In this document: piece by piece, positions 4,129 through 37,927 of the stretch
Layout: each line of letters starts with the position of its first letter
Numbering within the stretch: position 1 is the first letter of the stretch
Source of the DNA: Arcicella sp.
GTDB taxonomy: Bacteria; Bacteroidota; Bacteroidia; Cytophagales; Spirosomataceae
Assembly: GCA_025354645.1 (NCBI GenBank)
Contig: JANXML010000334.1
Span: 1-44,086 of the forward strand
Direction: 5' to 3'
Length of the DNA stretch: 44,086 bases
Program-made: the position numbers and the translations under genes
Notes under the pieces: model-generated
What the model saw: only the letters and a program-made list of their open reading frames with translations
Database searches by the model: none
What the model was told of the DNA's origin: nothing

Positions 4129-4464
4129 ATGTTCGACATGATGGGAATGCTTGGTAAAGTCAAAGACCTCCAAGTCAAAATGAAAGAAGCACAAGAATCA
4201 TTAGGGTCAATCACGGAAATCGGTGAATCTGGTGGTGGAATGGTGAAGGCAACCGTTAATGGTAAAAAACAATTGCTCAATATCGAAATTGATGAAGATC
4301 TCATCAAGCCCGAAGACCGTGAAATCCTTCAAGATTTAATCGTTGCTGCAACAAATAAGGCAATGGAAAATATTGATGATAAAGTAAAAGATCATCTTCA
4401 AAATGCCACAAAAGGTATAATGCCAAATATTCCAGGGATGGATTTGGGCGGAATGTTTTCATAG
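4129..4464 (+). CDS. ebfC: YbaB/EbfC family nucleoid-associated protein
   Basis: A 111-residue protein of the YbaB/EbfC family, small dimeric DNA-binding proteins that coat the nucleoid. The length is typical. The N-terminus MFDMMGMLGKVKDLQVKMKE is the characteristic amphipathic helix. It is followed by the glycine-rich turn GESGGGMVKATVNG, the strand IEIDEDLI, a helical segment with TNKAMENIDDK, and a flexible tail ending in PGMDLGGMFS. In many bacteria the family sits beside dnaX and recR; here it lies upstream of a gldA-like ATPase. The whole gap to that gene is a heptad inverted repeat that starts directly after the stop codon. Confidence 0.93.
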   Translation: MFDMMGMLGKVKDLQVKMKEAQESLGSITEIGESGGGMVKATVNGKKQLLNIEIDEDLIKPEDREILQDLIVAATNKAMENIDDKVKDHLQNATKGIMPNIPGMDLGGMFS

Positions 4465-4578
4465 TTTCGATGTTCGGGATTCGATGCTTGATTTTCGATT
4501 TTCGATGTTCGTAGTATCGAACTTTGAACATCGAATCACGAACATCGAATCTCTGAACATCGAATCACGAACATCGAA
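4465..4578. repeat. Heptad inverted-repeat array (GAACATC family) filling the ebfC-gldA gap
   Basis: The gap is almost wholly built of 7-base units. The left arm is 4465-4513 (TTTCGAT, GTTCGGG, ATTCGAT, GCTTGAT, TTTCGAT, TTTCGAT, GTTCGTA). The right arm is 4515-4578 (TATCGAA, CTTTGAA, CATCGAA, TCACGAA, CATCGAA, an 8-base unit TCTCTGAA, CATCGAA, TCACGAA, CATCGAA). The arms are reverse complements with mismatches, so an RNA hairpin is expected. The right arm ends three bases before the gldA-like ATG, so it replaces any normal ribosome-binding region. Confidence 0.92.
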
Positions 4579-4581
4579 ATC

Positions 4582-5286
4582 ATGTTAAAAGTACAAAATC
4601 TAACCAAAATTTACGGTACTCAAAAAGCCGTGAACAATATATCTTTTGAAGCCAAAGCGGGTGAAATCGTTGGTTTTTTAGGACCAAATGGTGCTGGAAA
4701 ATCTACGACCATGAAAATTGCTACGTGCTACCTTACTGCCACTTCTGGAAGCATAGAAGTCTGTGGATTCGACGTTCAGAGAAATTCCATAGAAGTTCGG
4801 CAAAACATTGGTTATTTACCCGAACATAATCCACTATACTTGGATATGTACGTTAGAGAATTTTTAGAATTTATTGGCGGAATATACGGTTTGAAAGGTC
4901 AGCACCTGCAAAAACGTATTTCAGATGTCATTGAATTATTTGGATTAACGTTGGAACATAAAAAGAAAATTGGACAGCTTTCCAAAGGGTATCGCCAACG
5001 GGTTGGTCTCGCACAAGCCCTCATACACGACCCAAAAGTATTGATTTTGGACGAACCCACCACAGGACTTGATCCAAATCAATTAGCTGAAATAAGACAA
5101 ATAATTAGAAATATTGGTAAAGAAAAGTCCGTAATTTTTTCCACCCATATTTTGCAAGAAGTTGAAGCAATTTGTAATAGAGTTGTGATTATCAATCACG
5201 GAATAATCGTAAAAGATTGCCCAATCAATGAATTAAAGCAAGTGGGTAAAACGATGGAGGATGTGTTTAGGGAATTAACGGTTTGA
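4582..5286 (+). CDS. gldA: GldA-like ABC transporter ATP-binding protein
   Basis: A 234-residue ABC ATPase closely resembling GldA, the ATPase of the GldAFG transporter linked to gliding motility. Motifs in order: Walker A GPNGAGKST, GYLPEHNPLYLDMYVREFL (very typical of GldA), signature LSKGYRQRVGLAQAL, Walker B and D-loop LILDEPTTGLDPNQ, and switch STHILQEVEAICNR. Flavobacterial GldA is about 300 residues. This protein stops soon after the nucleotide-binding domain with MEDVFRELTV, so the usual ~60-residue C-terminal extension is missing. No gldF or gldG permease gene is adjacent. The leader is a heptad hairpin ending three bases before ATG. The assignment to GldA rather than a generic ABC-2 ATPase is probable, not certain. 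Confidence 0.8.
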   Translation: MLKVQNLTKIYGTQKAVNNISFEAKAGEIVGFLGPNGAGKSTTMKIATCYLTATSGSIEVCGFDVQRNSIEVRQNIGYLPEHNPLYLDMYVREFLEFIGGIYGLKGQHLQKRISDVIELFGLTLEHKKKIGQLSKGYRQRVGLAQALIHDPKVLILDEPTTGLDPNQLAEIRQIIRNIGKEKSVIFSTHILQEVEAICNRVVIINHGIIVKDCPINELKQVGKTMEDVFRELTV

Positions 5287-6069: not shown

Positions 6070-6729
6070 CTATTCATTTTCTTTGGTATTAATATCTTCT
6101 ATTTCATTCTCTATTACTTTATTTTCTACTATTTCCTCTTTTTTTGGTTGGTCAAAAAACTTATTTTGAAAAATTAAAATCGAAACAACGCCACAAAAAA
6201 TGGAAGCATCAGCGAAATTAAAAATGGGTGTTGAATACCATGAACCGCCCCAAATTGGCACCCAATCAGGAATCCAGCCTTGATAAGGATCAAAGAAAAA
6301 CATATCAATCACTTGCCCATGAAACCACGGTGTAGGCGAGTCAGGAGGTTGATTTCCTAATAATTTACCATAAAAAGTACTGTCAATAACATTTCCGATA
6401 GCTCCTCCCAAAATGGCTGCAATACTCCACAAAAGCCCTTCATGAGCATTTCTGCGAGCTAATCTTACCAAATAATAGCCAATCCCAACCATTGCCACAA
6501 GCCTAAAAAGACTCAGCACAATTTTGCCATAACCTCCTGGGATAAAGCTCAATTCCATGCCGAAAGCCATTCCTCGGTTTAAAACATAATGCAATTTAAA
6601 CCATTGTCCAAAAACTGCCATTTCATTACCTTCATAAACTAAGTAATGATGAATACAATATTTTATTAATTGGTCAATGGCAATCAACAAGCATGTAAGC
6701 CAAAAATATTTATACGGAGAACGAAACAT
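6070..6729 (-). CDS. lspA: Lipoprotein signal peptidase LspA
   Basis: Inner-membrane aspartic peptidase that removes signal peptides from prolipoproteins. The protein has four hydrophobic segments and both catalytic aspartate motifs: GNVIDSTFYG and FNFADASIF. The family motif N-R-G-x-A-F-G (NRGMAFG) is also present. It has an insertion rich in W and P before the last helix (PTPWFHGQVIDMFFFDP), seen in Bacteroidota LspA, and a charged C-terminal tail rich in Glu and Asn. I place the start at the ATG 6729-6727 (219 residues). The longer frame adds 12 residues encoded by a heptad repeat array. Its substrates in this window would include the OmpA-type lipoproteins and the lipoprotein at 18.5 kb. 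Confidence 0.93.
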   Translation of the reverse strand: MFRSPYKYFWLTCLLIAIDQLIKYCIHHYLVYEGNEMAVFGQWFKLHYVLNRGMAFGMELSFIPGGYGKIVLSLFRLVAMVGIGYYLVRLARRNAHEGLLWSIAAILGGAIGNVIDSTFYGKLLGNQPPDSPTPWFHGQVIDMFFFDPYQGWIPDWVPIWGGSWYSTPIFNFADASIFCGVVSILIFQNKFFDQPKKEEIVENKVIENEIEDINTKENE

Positions 6730-6733
6730 AATA

Positions 6734-6868
6734 CAGTGAACAGTTATCAGTCGAACAAAAATCATTGTAGGTAAATGGCTATCCTTGAATTAGTCTATAA
6801 TATAGTAATTGAATTACAATGTCAAGAATTTTTCTGATAACTATTTACTGTTTACTGATAACTGTCTC
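6734..6868. repeat. Heptad inverted repeat (CAGTnnn family) in the lspA leader
   Basis: The left arm 6734-6757 has CAGTGAA, CAGTTAT, CAGTCGA and a partial unit. The right arm 6834-6868 is five inverted units: CTGATAA, CTATTTA, CTGTTTA, CTGATAA, CTGTCTC. About 75 bases of non-repeat sequence lie between them. The element is immediately upstream of the lspA ATG and would form a stem in its untranslated leader. Confidence 0.85.
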
Positions 6869-6951: not shown

Positions 6952-8181
6952 CTAATCCTTATTTTTTTGAAACATCAATCTCTTCCTTCTCACCAATTCA
7001 CGTTTAATCAATACAAATTCACGACTTGCTTGTCCTGCCACCGAAGTATTTTCTTCGGCACGACGGAATAAATAAGGCATAACGGATTCTACAGGACCAT
7101 AAGGAACATATTTCGCTACATTATACCCAGCCTTAGAAAGATTGAATGAAATATTGTCGGACATACCCAGCAATTGGGCAAAATAGAAGTGATTATCAGT
7201 AGGTTGAACATGGTGTTTAGTCATTAATTCCACCAAGCGTTTACAACTATATTCGTTATGAGTACCCACGCAAACAGAAATAACGTCACGATTTTCTACG
7301 GTATATTCCATGGCAGCATTAAAATCGTTATCGGTTCCCGCTTTGGTTTCGTGAACGGGTTCGCAGTAATTATCTTCATGGGCTTTCTGGCGTTCTCTTT
7401 CCATATAAGCCCCTCTCACTAACTTCACACCCAAATGATAATTTTGTTTACGAGCCTCAAAGGTTGCGTTCTTTAAATTATGAAACATATCCTTACGATA
7501 CATCTGGAAAGTATTATAAACCACACATTTATCGTGATTATATTTTCCCATCATTTCATAAGTCAACTCATCAATTGTATCTTGAATCCATGATTCTTCT
7601 CCGTCTATAAAAACTCTAACGTTCAAAATGGCGGCTCTTCCACATAGCATATCTATCCTTTTTCGGACTAACAAAAATGCCTCTTTTTCTTCATCGTACA
7701 ACTCTTCTTGGTTTTGAATTTTTTCCAATAATTCAGCACTTCCAATACCCGTAACTTTGAAAACCGCAAATGGAATTGCTTGATTTTGATTCGCTTTCTC
7801 TATAGTTAATAAAATCTCTTTGGCGGTCTTATCAAAACTTTTTTCGTCATCTTCGCCTTCAACGGAATAATCCAAAATTGTGCCGATATGAGCTTTGTCC
7901 AAATTTTCTATGGTTTTATTACATTCTTGCAGATTTTCTCCCCCACAAAACTGTTCAAAGACCGTCATTTTAATCAACTTTTTTATCGGAAAATGAAGAA
8001 AAAGAAATAGTTTGATAAAAAAAGTACCTAACTTTACGAGCCAATTCTGATTCATACTCGCAAAAATCAAGTATATCTTTTTTAACTGTAAGTTTGATTT
8101 GGAAGAAAAAGCAACGGAAGTATCCTCAAAACTGACTTTGGGGGACATTGTGAGGGGTTTGGTGGTCGGCATCTGAGTCAT
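6952..8181 (-). CDS. Proline dehydrogenase
   Basis: A 409-residue FAD-dependent proline dehydrogenase, catalysing proline to pyrroline-5-carboxylate as the first step of proline catabolism. It shows the PRODH barrel motifs VKLVRGAYMERERQKA, VCVGTHNEYS, FAQLLGMSDNISF and the C-terminal YVPYGPVESVMPYLFRRAEEN, which carries the substrate-binding Arg pair. It is the monofunctional type with no aldehyde dehydrogenase domain, so the second enzyme is encoded elsewhere. About 60 N-terminal residues before LVKLGTFFIK are less typical, but the annotated ATG is the first reasonable start. An internal Met (residue 4) is possible. A perfect palindrome at 8233-8247 lies in the leader. Confidence 0.93.
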   Translation of the reverse strand: MTQMPTTKPLTMSPKVSFEDTSVAFSSKSNLQLKKIYLIFASMNQNWLVKLGTFFIKLFLFLHFPIKKLIKMTVFEQFCGGENLQECNKTIENLDKAHIGTILDYSVEGEDDEKSFDKTAKEILLTIEKANQNQAIPFAVFKVTGIGSAELLEKIQNQEELYDEEKEAFLLVRKRIDMLCGRAAILNVRVFIDGEESWIQDTIDELTYEMMGKYNHDKCVVYNTFQMYRKDMFHNLKNATFEARKQNYHLGVKLVRGAYMERERQKAHEDNYCEPVHETKAGTDNDFNAAMEYTVENRDVISVCVGTHNEYSCKRLVELMTKHHVQPTDNHFYFAQLLGMSDNISFNLSKAGYNVAKYVPYGPVESVMPYLFRRAEENTSVAGQASREFVLIKRELVRRKRLMFQKNKD

Positions 8182-10671: not shown

Positions 10672-13536
10672 ATGAAAAAATTATTTCTTCTCGACGCAAT
10701 GGCGTTGATTTACAGAGCCCACTTTGCTTTCCAAAAAACACCTCGAATTTCCTCTACGGGCATGAATACAAGTGCTGTATTTGGTTTTGCTAATACACTT
10801 CTTGAAGTTATTACCAAAGAAAAACCTACGCATATCGGCGTAGCTTTTGATACTTCCGAACCCACATTTCGCCACATTCAATTTGAGGCTTACAAAGCTC
10901 AACGTGAAAAACAACCCGAGGATATTTCAATTGCGATTCCGTATGTCAAGAAACTTTGCGTTGCCATGAATATTCCGATTTTGGTAATGCCAGGCTACGA
11001 AGCTGACGACGTCATCGGGACGATTGCCAAACGTGCCGCCCGTGAACATGAAGATATGGAAATATACATGATGACTCCCGATAAAGATTACGGTCAGTTG
11101 GTTGAGGAACGCATTTTTATGTACAAGCCTGCCTACATGGGCAAGGGTGTTGAAGTGTTGGGCGTAACGGAAATCTGTGCAAAATGGGGCATTGATGATG
11201 TCATGAAGGTGATTGATATTTTGGGATTGATGGGCGATGCTTCCGATAATATTCCTGGTATTCCTGGCATTGGCGAAAAAACTGCCACTAAGCTCGTTGA
11301 AGAATATGGTTCGGTAGAAGGATTAATTGCAAATGTGGATAAATTGAAAGGCAAGCAACAGGAAAATGTACGAAATTTTGCCGAACAGGGCATTTTATCG
11401 AAAGAATTAGCAACGATAATGCTTTCGGTTCCCGTTGATTTTCATGAGGAAAGTTTGAGATTAACGGAGGTGAATAAAGACTTACTTTCACCACTTCTGG
11501 ACGAGTTGGAGTTTAGAACTTTGAGACGGAGGTTGTTGGGGGATGAGTCAGTAAACAGTGAACAGTTAACAGTAAACAGTAGTCAGAAAGCTGAAAGCCG
11601 AAAGCCGAAAGCATCTACTGGACAAATGGATATGTTTGGTAGCCTTGCCCAAGAGAAACAATTAAATGTTTTTGATACAAATGATACTGCTTTTGAACCA
11701 AACATCGAATTACGAAAATCGAACATCGAAAATACCGTTCACCAATACCACCTTATTAATACGCCAGAATTACGTCAATCATTAATTCATTTTTTGAGTT
11801 TGCAAGATGCCATTTGTTTTGATACTGAGACCACTAATATTGATGCTGTGGAAGCAGAATTGGTGGGAATGTCATTTGCTTATCGGAAGGGTGAGGGTTA
11901 TTACGTTCCCGTGCCAGCTAATAAAGCTGAAGCTCAGACAATTGTGAATGAATTCAAGCCCATTTTTTTAAATGAAAAAATTGAGAAAATTGCTCAAAAT
12001 ATTAAATATGACTTGATGGTTTTAACGCAATATGGCGTTGAAGTGAAGGGGAAAACCTATGATACGATGCTGGCTCATTACATCATCGAACCTGAAAAAC
12101 GTCACGGTATGGATATTTTAGCGGAAGATTTCTTGAATTACACGCCAGTATCTATCGAAGAAATTATTGGTAAAAAAGGCGTAAAACAAGGTAATATGCG
12201 GGATGCTGATATTGAGAAAGTGAAAGAATATGCAGCGGAAGATGCGGATATTACGTTGCAATTACGAGATAAATTACACCCCATCTTAGCCAAAAATCCG
12301 AGTGCCGTTCAATTGTTTGAAGAAGTGGAAATGCCTTTGACTCAAGTACTTTGCGATATTGAAATGGAAGGTGTGAGATTAGATATTGACTTTTTAGCCG
12401 CAATGTCGAAAGTTTTGGAGAAAGATATGTTGGAAGTACAAACGATTATTTTTGAATTAGCAGGACAAGATTTTAACATTAATTCCCCCAAGCAATTAGG
12501 CGAAATTTTATTTGACAAACTAAAACTTGATTCAAAAGCTAAAAAGACCAAAACGGGTCAATACATGACGGGCGAGGATATTTTAGTAAAATTAGAATTA
12601 CAAAATCATGAAATTGCCCGTAAAATTTTGGATTTCAGGGAATTACAGAAATTGAAATCGACTTATGTTGATGCTTTACCTCAACTAATTTCTCCGAGAA
12701 CAGGGCGAATTCATACGTCATTCAACCAAGCCGTAACTGCCACGGGACGACTTTCGAGTACGAATCCTAACCTTCAAAATATTCCTATTCGTACCCCACG
12801 TGGGCGAGAAATTCGCAAGGCTTTTATTCCTAAAAATGATGATTTTGTAATCCTTTCTGCCGATTATTCGCAAATAGAATTACGGATTATGGCGGCTTTC
12901 GCCAAGGATGAATCTATGATTGAAGCCTTTAACCAAGGTCGAGATATTCACGCCACAACTGCCGCAAAAGTATTTAATGTGAGCTTGGATGAAGTAACGT
13001 CTGAGATGCGTAGAAAGGCAAAAACGGTCAATTTTGGGATTATTTATGGCGTTTCTGCCTTTGGTTTAGCTGAGCAAATTGGTGTAAGCCGCACCGAAGC
13101 CAAGGAGTTGATTGATAGTTATTGGAAAGAATTTCCCGCCATCAAAAAATACATGAACGATGCCGTGATTAATGCCCGTGACAATCAGTACGTGGAAACC
13201 ATCATGGGCAGACGTAGGTATTTGCGTGACATCAATTCACAGAACATGGTAGAGCGTGGTTTTGCGGAAAGAAATGCCGTGAATGCCCCCATTCAAGGTT
13301 CGGCGGCGGATATGATTAAGGTGGCGATGATAAAAATTAATGATTTCATCAAAGAAAATAAGCTACAATCCCGCATGATTTTGACGGTTCATGACGAATT
13401 AGTGTTCGATGCTCACAAATCGGAAGTGGAATTATTGAAAGCAAAAGTCCACGAATTGATGATTACCGCCATTGATTTCCCTGTGAAAATGGATACAGGC
13501 ATTGGCGTTGGGGCGAATTGGTTGGAGGCACACTGA
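10672..13536 (+). CDS. polA: DNA polymerase I
   Basis: A 954-residue three-domain replication and repair polymerase. Residues 1 to ~290 are the 5' nuclease (LLDAMALIYRAHFAF, GYEADDVIGT, DKDYGQL, LMGDASDNIPGIPGIGEKTA). Residues ~355-545 are a 3'-5' exonuclease that keeps its metal ligands (D384 and E386 in FDTETT, NIKYD, YAAED), so proofreading is probably active. The polymerase follows, with motif A DYSQIELR near 731, motif B RRKAKTVNFGIIYG, and motif C VHDE near 906-909. The O-helix residue is Phe (NFGIIYG). The linker between nuclease and exonuclease (about residues 293-353) is unusual: it is encoded partly by two heptad repeat arrays. The XRE antitoxin gene lies upstream. Confidence 0.97.
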   Translation: MKKLFLLDAMALIYRAHFAFQKTPRISSTGMNTSAVFGFANTLLEVITKEKPTHIGVAFDTSEPTFRHIQFEAYKAQREKQPEDISIAIPYVKKLCVAMNIPILVMPGYEADDVIGTIAKRAAREHEDMEIYMMTPDKDYGQLVEERIFMYKPAYMGKGVEVLGVTEICAKWGIDDVMKVIDILGLMGDASDNIPGIPGIGEKTATKLVEEYGSVEGLIANVDKLKGKQQENVRNFAEQGILSKELATIMLSVPVDFHEESLRLTEVNKDLLSPLLDELEFRTLRRRLLGDESVNSEQLTVNSSQKAESRKPKASTGQMDMFGSLAQEKQLNVFDTNDTAFEPNIELRKSNIENTVHQYHLINTPELRQSLIHFLSLQDAICFDTETTNIDAVEAELVGMSFAYRKGEGYYVPVPANKAEAQTIVNEFKPIFLNEKIEKIAQNIKYDLMVLTQYGVEVKGKTYDTMLAHYIIEPEKRHGMDILAEDFLNYTPVSIEEIIGKKGVKQGNMRDADIEKVKEYAAEDADITLQLRDKLHPILAKNPSAVQLFEEVEMPLTQVLCDIEMEGVRLDIDFLAAMSKVLEKDMLEVQTIIFELAGQDFNINSPKQLGEILFDKLKLDSKAKKTKTGQYMTGEDILVKLELQNHEIARKILDFRELQKLKSTYVDALPQLISPRTGRIHTSFNQAVTATGRLSSTNPNLQNIPIRTPRGREIRKAFIPKNDDFVILSADYSQIELRIMAAFAKDESMIEAFNQGRDIHATTAAKVFNVSLDEVTSEMRRKAKTVNFGIIYGVSAFGLAEQIGVSRTEAKELIDSYWKEFPAIKKYMNDAVINARDNQYVETIMGRRRYLRDINSQNMVERGFAERNAVNAPIQGSAADMIKVAMIKINDFIKENKLQSRMILTVHDELVFDAHKSEVELLKAKVHELMITAIDFPVKMDTGIGVGANWLEAH
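11549..11611. repeat. Nine-unit heptad array (CAGTnnn family) inside polA
   Basis: Nine consecutive 7-base units: CAGTAAA, CAGTGAA, CAGTTAA, CAGTAAA, CAGTAGT, CAGAAAG, CTGAAAG, CCGAAAG, CCGAAAG. The total is exactly 63 bases (21 codons), so the frame is kept. It encodes SVNSEQLTVNSSQKAESRKP in the linker after the 5' nuclease. The units match those of the intergenic CAGTnnn arrays near lspA and after the prohibitin-like gene. Confidence 0.9.
11703..11730. repeat. Four-unit heptad array (GAACATC family) inside polA
   Basis: CATCGAA, TTACGAA, AATCGAA, CATCGAA: the same units as the right arm of the ebfC-gldA array. They encode part of NIELRKSNIENT, just before the proofreading domain. It lies about 90 bases after the first polA array and belongs to a different repeat family. 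Confidence 0.8.
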
Positions 13537-33985: not shown

Positions 33986-34453
33986 ATGAAAACTATCAAT
34001 CAATGGCTTGCCGAATACGGCGAAAGTCACCAAAATCCAACCAATAAAACGGTTCACTGGATATGCGTTCCCCTTATTTTTTTTAGTGTAGTTGGATTAC
34101 TTTTTAGTATTAAACTCCCATTTTTCAGTTTCGGGGATATGCAAGGTAATGTAGCCTTAGTTGTGCTGGTTGTCACATTAATTTATTACTTCACTTTATC
34201 AAAATCTTTAACAGTTGGCTTGCTAATTTTCACGTCATTGTGTGTTTATTTATGTTACCTCATTGAACAATCAGGATTTGCTCCGTTATGGCAGGTATCA
34301 GTTACGGTTTTTGTTTTGGCTTGGATTGGTCAATTCTGGGGGCATAAAGTAGAAGGGAAAAAACCATCGTTTTTAAAAGATTTGCAATTCTTAATGATTG
34401 GACCCGCTTGGTTAATGAGCTTTATTTATCAGCGTTTGGGAATAGCACTTTAA
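33986..34453 (+). CDS. Mpo1-like (DUF962) membrane protein
   Basis: A 155-residue integral membrane protein of the Mpo1/DUF962 family. The conserved motif near the N-terminus is visible: YGESHQNPTNKTVHWICVP, where the H-x-N-x-x-N-K-x-x-H residues are the iron ligands in yeast Mpo1. Four hydrophobic segments follow at about 25-45, 55-75, 78-98 and 104-122, the last ending in GQFWGHKVEGKKP, which has another conserved His. Yeast Mpo1 alpha-oxidises 2-hydroxy fatty acids; the bacterial role is not known. The 3' flank is a heptad inverted repeat, then a terminator. Confidence 0.88.
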   Translation: MKTINQWLAEYGESHQNPTNKTVHWICVPLIFFSVVGLLFSIKLPFFSFGDMQGNVALVVLVVTLIYYFTLSKSLTVGLLIFTSLCVYLCYLIEQSGFAPLWQVSVTVFVLAWIGQFWGHKVEGKKPSFLKDLQFLMIGPAWLMSFIYQRLGIAL

Positions 34454-34456
34454 TAG

Positions 34457-34617
34457 GTATGAATTATGAGGTAGTAGGTAGGAGGTGTTAAGTCGCAAGG
34501 TTTAAGTTTACTTCTCAAGGTTTAAATTTACTTTTCAAGGTTTAAATTTTTTTACTTACTACTTACTACCTCATACCTACGACTTCATACCTCATACCTA
34601 CGACCTACTACCTCATA
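34457..34617. repeat. Heptad inverted repeat (TATGAGG/CCTCATA family) after the Mpo1-like gene
   Basis: The left arm from 34457 has GTATGAA, TTATGAG, GTAGTAG, GTAGGAG, GTGTTAA, GTCGCAA. The right arm 34555-34617 has nine units: CTTACTA, CTTACTA, CCTCATA, CCTACGA, CTTCATA, CCTCATA, CCTACGA, CCTACTA, CCTCATA. In the loop region a 20-base unit beginning CAAGGTTTAA recurs three times (34496, 34516, 34536). The array starts three bases after the stop codon. Confidence 0.92.
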
Positions 34618-34653
34618 CCTAAAAAAGACCTTTCATAACATATCAGAATAAAT

Positions 34654-35655: not shown

Positions 35656-35664
35656 GGCTGTTAG

Positions 35665-35825
35665 CAGTTATCAGTAAGCAGTTTTCAGTGAACAATTAGC
35701 AAGAAGCAGTTATCAGTGAATCGCTGATAAATATTAACAAAAGATTAAAATTAACGATAGTTTAACACTAAGTTTTACAACTAAATTTTAATTGATAATT
35801 GTTCACTGATAACTGATAACTGCTC
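35665..35825. repeat. Heptad inverted repeat (CAGTnnn family) between the prohibitin-like and OmpA genes
   Basis: The left arm 35665-35720 is eight units: CAGTTAT, CAGTAAG, CAGTTTT, CAGTGAA, CAATTAG, CAAGAAG, CAGTTAT, CAGTGAA. The right arm 35791-35825 is five inverted units: ATTGATA, ATTGTTC, ACTGATA, ACTGATA, ACTGCTC. About 70 bases lie between them. It fills the convergent intergenic space, where no ordinary terminator is present. Confidence 0.93.
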
Positions 35826-35829
35826 AATG

Positions 35830-36732: not shown

Positions 36733-36879
36733 AATAGTATGTTTGTTTGATGGGTTGAATCAAAGTAATGGTTGCTTTGAAACGCAATTAGCAATAAGCT
36801 AATCTTAATTGAACAAAAACCGTGCAATTATTAAAGGAATAAGAGAAAGATACATGAAAAACGAAAAGAGCGTTTTTAG

Positions 36880-37017
36880 GTACAAGTTATGAGGCATGAG
36901 TTATGAGGTATAAATTATGAGGTATGAGGTAGGAGGCATGAATTATAAGTACGAATTGTGAGGTAAAATTCTTACTTAATTATTTATACATCATATCTCA
37001 TACCTCATATCTCATTC
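36880..37017. repeat. Heptad inverted repeat (TATGAGG family) between the OmpA paralogues
   Basis: The left arm 36880-36962 is about twelve units (GTACAAG, TTATGAG, GCATGAG, TTATGAG, GTATAAA, TTATGAG, GTATGAG, GTAGGAG and others, with one 6-base unit at 36950). The right arm 36990-37017 is ATCATAT, CTCATAC, CTCATAT, CTCATTC. It ends one base before the stop codon of the OmpA gene at 37019. It belongs to the same family as the array after the Mpo1-like gene. Confidence 0.9.
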
Positions 37018-37018
37018 A

Positions 37019-37927
37019 TTATTTCTGTCCATTTGCCAGCATTTGAAAGAATTGGTCAAGTTTTGGCAGTACAATAATTTCAGTTCTACGATTTGTTCTA
37101 CGTCCTATTTCATTTGAATTTGGCACTTTTGGAACAAACTCAGAACGTCCTCCCGCAGTCATTCGTTCGGGCGAAATGCCAAATTTAGCTTGCAGAAGTC
37201 TTACAACTGAAGTTGCTCGTTTTGCAGATAAATCCCAATTGTCCATTAAGCAAATGGTTGAAATTGGCACGTTATCCGTATGACCTTCCACTAAAATATC
37301 TAATTCTTTATGATCGTTCACCACCCTTGAAACTTTCTCTAAAACAACTTCTGCTCGGGGATTAATCATAGCACTACCCGACTGAAAAAGCATTTTATCT
37401 GAAATAGAAATGTAAACAACTCCTTTTTTCACTTCAACTGTCACATCTTCATCATTAATATCTGCCAAAGAGCGTTTTAAGGTCATCATTAAAACTAAAT
37501 TCAAAGAATCTTTTCGTTGAACCGATGAATTCAAGTCTTTGATATATTTGCTTTGGTCGTTTAAGGTTTCCAAGGATTTTCTAATACTTTCTGCCCCTGA
37601 TTTACTGACAATCGAAAGGTCGGACATTCTATCTAAAAGGTTTGTATTGGTTTTTTTTAGATAATCAATCTGATCTTCTAATGCTTTTGTTTGAGCCACC
37701 CACTGCTTTGATTTTGCGTCTAATTCAATTGTTTTTGACTTTAAATCGGATTCCAGACCTGCTTTTGATTTATCACAATCACGCAACTCAGACCTTACTT
37801 TATTCAAATTATTCTCAGAATTCGCCTTAAAAGTTGAATATTCAGCCTGGGCTTCTGCTAATTTTTTCTTGCTTACACAAGATGTCATGAAGACAAATGA
37901 AGTTACTAAAATCAATGCTTTTTTCAT
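37019..37927 (-). CDS. OmpA-family lipoprotein (copy 2)
   Basis: A 302-residue paralogue of the gene at 35830, with the same order of parts: lipobox MTSCVSKKK (Cys at residue 17), coiled coil with DQIDYLKKTNTNLLDRMSDLS, and an OmpA/MotB domain with VYISISDKMLFQSGSAMINP, LVEGHTDNVPIS, DNWDLSAKRATSVVRLL, PERMTAGGRSEFVP and NRRTEIIVLP. This copy keeps the canonical G-H-T-D motif. Tandem orientation and long shared blocks indicate local duplication. The region between the copies is occupied by a heptad inverted repeat. It probably anchors the outer membrane to peptidoglycan. Confidence 0.93.
   Translation of the reverse strand: MKKALILVTSFVFMTSCVSKKKLAEAQAEYSTFKANSENNLNKVRSELRDCDKSKAGLESDLKSKTIELDAKSKQWVAQTKALEDQIDYLKKTNTNLLDRMSDLSIVSKSGAESIRKSLETLNDQSKYIKDLNSSVQRKDSLNLVLMMTLKRSLADINDEDVTVEVKKGVVYISISDKMLFQSGSAMINPRAEVVLEKVSRVVNDHKELDILVEGHTDNVPISTICLMDNWDLSAKRATSVVRLLQAKFGISPERMTAGGRSEFVPKVPNSNEIGRRTNRRTEIIVLPKLDQFFQMLANGQK

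Follow-up and report, generated by a model that had tools for sequence, protein, structure and literature searches.

Heptanucleotide repeats in frame within the DNA polymerase I linker of an Arcicella clade

The stretch of DNA analysed here, hereafter referred to as the window, comprises 44,086 nucleotides (nt) of a contig from Arcicella sp. (JANXML010000334.1, assembly GCA_025354645.1; Bacteroidota, Spirosomataceae) and contains polA, the gene for DNA polymerase I (Pol I, PolA). Pfam places the 5' nuclease domains of this full-length enzyme at residues 3-269, the 3'-5' exonuclease from residue 359 and the polymerase at 574-952, and the DNA encoding the linker between the two nuclease domains carries three blocks with a period of 7 nt, every one of them in frame (Table 1). 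An original prediction, made from the sequence alone, had described a nine-unit CAGTnnn array and a four-unit GAACATC-type array at this site. In-frame heptad arrays are indeed present, but the nine units divide into five CAGTnnn heptads (CAGTAAA, CAGTGAA, CAGTTAA, CAGTAAA and CAGTAGT, followed by CAG) and about four adjoining units of a second family of the GAAAGCC type (AAAGCTG, AAAGCCG, AAAGCCG and AAAGC), while the four-unit block further downstream is on detailed reading an imperfect CATCGAA array (ACATCGA, ATTACGA, AAATCGA and ACATCGA). Together, the three blocks encode approximately 33 linker residues, including the seven-residue pattern VNSEQLT VNSSQKA, and none has an inverted partner arm by eye. 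As the prediction also stated, the CAGTnnn and CATCGAA families both recur in the window as intergenic inverted repeats.

The 7-nt periodicity of the polA linker exceeds chance. In the best 35-position segment, 28 positions match the position 7 nt away (lag 7), compared with 17 elsewhere in the gene; 300 whole-gene codon shuffles gave at most 22 matches, and codon shuffling for the linker yielded p = 0.0005, the floor of 2000 shuffles. Selection for an open frame, which had been proposed at the outset, would fit blocks 1 and 2, which contain stop codons in both other sense frames and are open in the polA frame only; block 3 is open in all three sense frames and therefore uninformative. Among 15 five-unit CAGT stretches sampled from the genome, coding arrays included, 12 of 45 sense frames are open, so that an open frame has been kept in polA yet is not difficult to find. 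The prediction that this linker is the tolerant part of Pol I agrees with an AlphaFold2 model (29 PolA sequences; mean predicted local distance difference test score (pLDDT) 86.4), in which the single segment predicted at pLDDT below 50, residues 291-347, lies close to the heptad stretch at 293-353, with the caveat that low pLDDT is also expected where the alignment is variable.

Table 1. Coordinates of polA, its heptad blocks and the intergenic heptad elements in the window (aa, amino acids; ORF, open reading frame)
Feature	Position	Strand	Remark
polA, DNA polymerase I	10672..13536	+	954 aa; Pfam
DNA of PolA residues 291-347	11542..11712	+	Sole residues with pLDDT below 50 in the model
Block 1, CAGTnnn heptads x5 + CAG	11549..11586	+	aa 293-305, in frame
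Block 2, about four GAAAGCC-type heptads	11586..11612	+	aa 305-314, in frame
Block 3, four degenerate CATCGAA-type heptads	11702..11729	+	aa 344-353, in frame
CATCGAA-family intergenic hairpin	4466..4578		Fills the gap between ORFs 4129-4464 and 4582-5286
CAGTnnn arm	6830..6864	-	In the gap between ORFs 6070-6765 and 6952-8181
TGAGGTA/TACCTCA intergenic heptad hairpin	34454..34622		Begins directly after the stop codon at 34453
CAGTnnn intergenic hairpin	35658..35829		Arms adjoin the stop codons of two convergent ORFs (35655 +, 35830 -)
TGAGG-type intergenic heptad hairpin	36878..37019		Adjoins the stop codon of ORF 37019-37927 (-)

Linker periodicity was tested in 26 PolA rows, seven from the clade of the window and 19 others; these include the window itself (genome G000), L002 (A. 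aurantiaca, G001), L015 (A. rosea, G002), L001 (G003) and L003 (G004). All seven rows of the window's clade have a 7-nt periodic linker (p 0.0005-0.008), and no such periodicity was found in A. rosea or in 17 of the 18 remaining rows (18 of the 19 with p at or above 0.19), L064 being borderline (p 0.04 for the linker, without a significant segment). A tree built from 18 of these 26 sequences, with the linker removed, unites the seven heptad-bearing PolAs in one clade (support 100/100) and places A. rosea outside it; two rows of this tree were less than half filled and six of its inner forks stayed open. As all seven members carry heptads at this site, a recent origin in the lineage of the window alone is not supported; it is their re-spelling in place that looks recent, as described below.

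The original prediction had further expected that close relatives would lack these linker residues, or have fewer of them or different heptads, between conserved domains. The domains are conserved and some relatives carry different heptads, but a linker shorter by about 30 residues is not the pattern seen. The linker measures 68 aa in the window and 68-74 aa across the heptad clade, against linkers of 66 aa in A. rosea, 54-66 aa in Flectobacillus/Pseudarcicella (66 in P. hirudinis, 54-63 in the others), 68-82 aa in Emticicia and 55 aa in L017 and L058. An insertion adding some 30 residues is not supported. Since the linkers of the clade exceed that of A. rosea by only 2-8 aa, though about 33 aa are heptad-coded, the heptads appear mostly to have overwritten disordered linker sequence that was already there. 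The clade may have gained a few residues relative to its nearest relatives, but the lengths do not support whole arrays having been added to the former linker.

Within the heptad clade, the blocks can differ far more than their surroundings. Between L001 and L020, DNA identity is 92-97% in the flanks and 93% in the inter-block stretch, compared with 47% and 55% in the heptad blocks; at the protein level, relatives with flanks 97-100% identical share 36% and 41% of the residues in the blocks. Block 1 is spelled CAGTCGG in L001 and CAGTGAA/CAGTTAT/CAGTAAA in L020, and block 3 appears by eye to be CATCGAA-like in five of the seven rows (window, L003, L019, L020 and L055), CCAAAAT-like in L002 and CAGAACC-like in L001. 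At some loci, the spelling resembles that used elsewhere in the same genome. The polA block of L001, of the common CAGTCGG type of G003, matches 34 other places in its own genome at E at or below 0.1, compared with two in G001 and five in A. rosea, and the block of the window, searched in G000 alone, matches 53 other places there. By eye, most of the G003 places listed have a unit ending in GG, and almost none of the G000 places do.

The heptads extend well beyond polA. The pattern CAGTNNNCAGTNNNCAGT occurs at 172 places in G000, a draft assembly with completeness 95.4 and contamination 4.35, against none for a reversed control pattern. In the other seven of the eight genus genomes, its counts are 442 (G001), 0 (G002), 35 (G003), 291 (G004), 4 (G005), 8 (G006) and 169 (G007), with control counts of 0 except 1 in G004. 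Of 81 genomes sampled from the family, with the own genus among them, 58 contain the pattern at least once, and in some the reversed control is matched many times as well. In 227 kb of G000 (the window and ten further stretches, of which several came from contigs where arrays had been seen beforehand), 22 lag-7 and 27 lag-14 arrays were counted, with 0-2 at each other lag from 4 to 15 and no lag-7 arrays in a Markov-1 control. At polA loci from other species, we counted nine lag-7 arrays in Arcicella (60 kb, seven of the nine being the polA blocks), two in A. rosea (91 kb) and eight in other Bacteroidota (427 kb, against 0-4 at each remaining lag from 4 to 13); there were none in Flectobacillus/Pseudarcicella (68 kb), in Emticicia (94 kb) or outside Bacteroidota (107 kb). 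A. rosea therefore lacks the CAGT family without being altogether free of heptads. A very long minus-strand ORF at L105:10330-19998 has internal repeats at multiples of 243 nt and is not a heptad-type array.

In-frame heptads are also present in other genes of G000, namely mutS (CAGTTAA and CCAAATC), a PD-(D/E)XK protein (CATCGAA; Pfam gave PDDEXK_1 only, and we take the protein to be AddB-like), RNase R, a MutS-like protein and a glycosyltransferase (GT9); the repair-type genes among these, like polA, came from stretches picked for long contigs or array matches, so that their number is no measure of an enrichment in DNA repair. Across the 20 stretches fetched for arrays, 7 of 22 CAGT clusters were scored as coding, five of them in genes with a Pfam match. 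L145 and L147, first scored as coding, were not counted as genes, no family search having been made for them, and ExbD (L103) was dropped because its array lies upstream of the likely true start. At the corresponding slots of relatives, the spelling or the family often differs. In mutS, the slot of G003 is filled with CAGTCGG, of which G005 and G006 show traces; G001 has degenerate units there, G004 and G007 have CATCGAA-like ones, and A. rosea has no heptads. The PD-(D/E)XK slot holds AAAGCC/GACAGCC in G003 and no heptads in the six genomes other than G000 and G003. The GT9 loop has CAGTTAT units in G000, G001 and G007 and plain sequence in G002, G005 and G006. The MutS-like gene carries CAGTnnn in G000, G001, G003 (as CAGTCGG) and G004, with little or none in G002, G005, G006 and G007. 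In RNase R, one loop of G001 combines CAGTnnn, CATCGAA and CTAACCC units, G003 has CAATTAA-like and AAAGCC units, and A. rosea has none by eye. The heptads of mutS are a genuine net insertion: the gap between the aligned halves of the protein, computed by hand, is 63-91 aa in G000 against 3-20 aa in A. rosea and 23 other family genera (of 25 other family genomes, one had no match and one a mutS-family match only).

Several of these genes show further features. In GT9 of G003 and G004 (L184 and L186), an in-frame GC-rich palindrome occupies by eye the position of the CAGTTAT loop. The PD-(D/E)XK gene of G001 (L138/L134) and G003 (L137/L133) contains an in-frame insert of 600-700 bp that the G000 gene lacks. 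The insert codes for a DUF559 nuclease-like domain (in G001, Pfam E 2.6e-35) between palindromic repeats reading SPLSRRGVG, and it looks like a mobile endonuclease carried in frame within a repair gene. Within the first 45 residues of the MutS-like ORF at L157, residues of about 10-42 match many places in G000 and G003 and some in G005, apparently as a dispersed repeat. In G000, the UDP-glucose/GDP-mannose dehydrogenase gene at L151:1192-2511 terminates within a CAGTAAA array that provides its C-terminus and stop codon. A paired heptad element at L141:2736-2851 extends from the final part of an ORF into the beginning of a DUF4159 gene, where the ACTG arm encodes the core of the signal-peptide-like N-terminal stretch.

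Between genes, the heptads frequently form inverted pairs. Predicted folding energies are -53.4 kcal/mol for the CATCGAA element at 4466-4578 and -52.3 kcal/mol for the CAGTnnn element at 35658-35829 (folds without a shuffled control); by eye, the heptad arms pair as a hairpin in 7 of 10 folded gaps and not in the other three, and the central parts of the elements appear unrelated between sites. Of 39 CAGTnnn clusters in G000, 20 contain both strands, some overlapping ORF calls, and 19 have arms on one strand only. The CAGT arm comes first in all 20 paired clusters, and the order is likewise fixed in CATCGAA (2/2) and TACCTCA (3/3) pairs. The arms also lie close to gene edges. Of 64 CAGT arms, 38 could be scored, since 25 overlapped ORF calls (one arm being listed twice; real genes, ORF ends and probably spurious ORFs) and one had no neighbouring ORF. 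In 25 of these intergenic arms, the outer side begins no more than 10 nt from an ORF edge, compared with an expectation of 2.8 and a maximum of 10 in 5000 trials of random placement in the same gaps. On the stop-codon side, 13 of 19 arms overlap the stop codon or begin no more than 3 nt away from it, a figure that should be unbiased; on the start-codon side, 12 of 19 lie within 7 nt of the ATG, a figure biased by stop codons inside the arrays. Two functional roles for these elements were considered and dropped. The 15 intergenic clusters comprise 9 co-directional, 3 convergent and 3 divergent gaps (counted by eye), and since divergent gaps are not avoided, a role as terminators or 3' ends was abandoned. 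Translational coupling through a bridging hairpin was rejected in turn, the arms adjoining ORF edges in convergent (35658-35829 and L139) and divergent (L155) pairs as well. One intergenic gap differs in family between relatives: the gap at 4465-4581 is filled by CATCGAA in the window and by inverted CTAACCC-like heptads at the orthologous position of A. aurantiaca. For A. rosea, such a comparison had little to work with, as only polA and one other of 34 compared ORFs of the window found matches (80 kb).

The best reading, to which we assign a probability of about 0.6, is that the Arcicella clade possesses a heptanucleotide repeat system of several families, spread throughout the genome, and that the polA arrays are coding members of it that overwrote the linker in frame and were then re-spelled. 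The reading starts from direct observations of the distribution of the arrays, their clade-wide presence in polA with little change in length, the local re-spelling between intact flanks, the resemblance at some loci to the spelling of the host genome, the edge placement and the polarity. The heptads seem to occupy DNA under little constraint, including intergenic gaps, often as far as the neighboring stop and start codons, variable protein loops and the stretch of PolA modelled as disordered. Most simply, they would have arrived in polA once, in an ancestor at or before the base of the seven-member clade, mainly replacing a linker that was already variable and adding few residues at most, after which units would have been re-spelled in place. 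Units could be copied or replaced through slippage together with short template switches or conversion between arrays in a shared 7-nt register. Selection at the protein level would only remove stop codons and frame changes and keep the linker flexible, thereby acting as a boundary. Nothing points to a role of the heptads in Pol I itself.

Several observations weigh against this reading. Slippage combined with neutral filling does not predict the uniform polarity of the paired arms (20/20), which suggests that the elements are structured or have a function. The second gap compared, that of the arm at 6830-6864, keeps the CAGTnnn family in A. aurantiaca, where it forms two arms. In polA, the seven heptad linkers are slightly longer than the eight nearest heptad-free ones (54-66 aa), and some residues may therefore have been added; in mutS, the net insertion, which includes non-heptad sequence, means that overwriting is not the sole mode. 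A perfect donor for the polA block of the window was not found among the 40 of 83 candidates scored, the best of which reach 96% over 28 nt, 94% over 34 nt and 88% over 41 nt. The RNase R array of G003 is AT-rich and does not follow the CGG spelling of that genome. Finally, G000 and several of the relatives are draft or metagenome assemblies.

The fixed polarity is among the features that an alternative source of the arrays would accommodate, namely a mobile palindromic element, similar to the Rickettsia palindromic elements (RPEs), that inserts into gaps and genes and whose deletion-trimmed remnants in the linker would be the polA blocks. This origin would also fit the palindrome in GT9 of G003 and G004, where G000, G001 and G007 hold CAGTTAT, as well as the longer mutS gap of G000 and the report that Rickettsia orthologs hold different RPE families at the same site (PMC3767692). 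We nevertheless consider it rather unlikely, as the blocks in polA lack an inverted partner and have lengthened the linker little if at all, the intergenic central parts appear unrelated between sites, and a common end or target duplication was not noticed, though no systematic search was made for one. The position of the arms near start and stop codons, together with their polarity, could instead point to a regulatory or RNA-level motif, in which a nucleic-acid-binding protein would recognize TAACTGA-like heptads, a role put forward for those of Beggiatoaceae, and the copies within polA would be functional sites in the mRNA or DNA. Such placement agrees with the description by MacGregor (PMC4679880). 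Against this, near relatives differ in spelling and at some sites in family, the polA units are variants rather than the TAACTGA consensus, and the arms upstream of ATG may be partly forced by stop codons within the arrays; we regard a motif of this kind as improbable.

Two further explanations concern polA more narrowly. If the spelling differences arose by homologous recombination swapping linker segments between lineages, block 1 of L001 could resemble that of L055 and its block 2 that of the window, contrary to the tree, as they do by eye; however, the immediate flanks and inter-block stretch of L001 stay 93-97% identical to those of L020, so that only tracts of roughly block length could have been exchanged, and several other genes and one gap also change spelling or family, which makes this account very improbable. 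Selection at the protein level for a seven-residue repeat, such as a coiled coil or binding motif, with DNA periodicity as a by-product, would fit the seven-residue pattern in the linker, since a 7-nt period gives one. Such selection favors lag 21, yet blocks 1 and 2 match better at lag 7 (0.83) than at lag 21 (0.67); moreover, the model predicts pLDDT below 50 and no helix in the heptad linker, and the residues of the blocks diverge between relatives with nearly identical flanks. This possibility is scarcely credible.

Heptanucleotide repeats of the TAACTGA family, as well as in-frame repeats in genes, are already known. MacGregor (2015) reported TAACTGA heptamer direct repeats in Beggiatoaceae, Cyanobacteria and five Bacteroidetes, described as often intergenic, near start codons, and occasionally within ORFs in the 'reverse' sense (PMC4679880). 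The core unit is shared, CAGTTAT being a rotation of the reverse complement of TAACTGA, and by sequence the CAGTnnn family corresponds to that family. In G000, TAACTGA-type tandem runs, for example CAGTTATCAGTTATCAGT, recur many times, and forward-sense arms stand just upstream of start codons, with caution for the bias that array stops exert on ORF starts. The polA array itself has no two or more consecutive TAACTGA/TCAGTTA units, its five CAGT units being variants, and is thus a relative rather than an exact member of the family. In MacGregor's account, ORFs with reverse repeats are mostly short hypothetical proteins or protein ends (PMC4679880), whereas in Arcicella the repeats lie within core genes, in linkers and loops encoded by polA, mutS, RNase R and the MutS-like gene. 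They belong to several heptad families, are often paired in inverted orientation with a constant polarity, and differ in spelling among close relatives.

The nearest case for in-frame repeats in core genes is that of the RPEs, described as palindromes of approximately 100-150 bp that add residues (PMC3767692, PMC10969869). Shared features are the occurrence of in-frame repeats in unrelated genes (here polA, mutS, PD-(D/E)XK, RNase R, MutS-like and GT9) and the presence, as reported for RPEs, of different families at one site in orthologs. The polA blocks differ in being one-sided tandem heptads, not palindromic, with little or no gain in length, while mutS shows a clear gain. Heptameric repeats are reported to be over-represented in bacteria, with the GGGNATC simple sequence repeats of Xanthomonas and Nostoc as examples and heptanucleotide repeats of Calothrix also mentioned (PMC4692102). 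The GGGNATC repeats resemble the present ones in their 7-nt unit, degenerate positions, genome-wide spread and non-coding preference, but are described as G-rich quadruplex formers that are under-represented in coding regions (PMC4692102). For fast-evolving tandem repeats that form disordered regions in proteins, the nearest case is that of the Borgs, in which all ORF repeats are stated to have a unit length divisible by three (PMC9879509); the Arcicella unit of 7 nt is not a multiple of three, so that the frame is kept only through the choice of units and the total length. Among the titles and abstract openings listed by literature searches, none dealt with heptads within core genes of Arcicella or its relatives. 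Both the edge placement and the re-spelling of units in place within core genes seem to be new.

A bolder and tentative extension of the repeat-system reading is that a lineage-specific DNA-writing process lays down sequence with a 7-nt period wherever selection does not hold the DNA, halts at stop codons, start codons and folded domains, and keeps its spelling largely uniform across a genome. If so, the linkers of polA, mutS, the PD-(D/E)XK nuclease and the MutS-like protein would have been rewritten in the local heptad dialect, and the arrays would naturally chart where DNA is unconstrained and exemplify concerted evolution of microsatellites at coding and non-coding loci alike. Bacterial heptanucleotide repeats have so far been without an agreed mechanism, and nearly identical PolA domains with different heptads at the same codons offer a system for measuring the rate, direction and donors of repeat rewriting. 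In Arcicella, the arrays may serve as markers of weak selection, and the polA linker illustrates that flexible protein linkers can come from repeats with a unit length that three does not divide.

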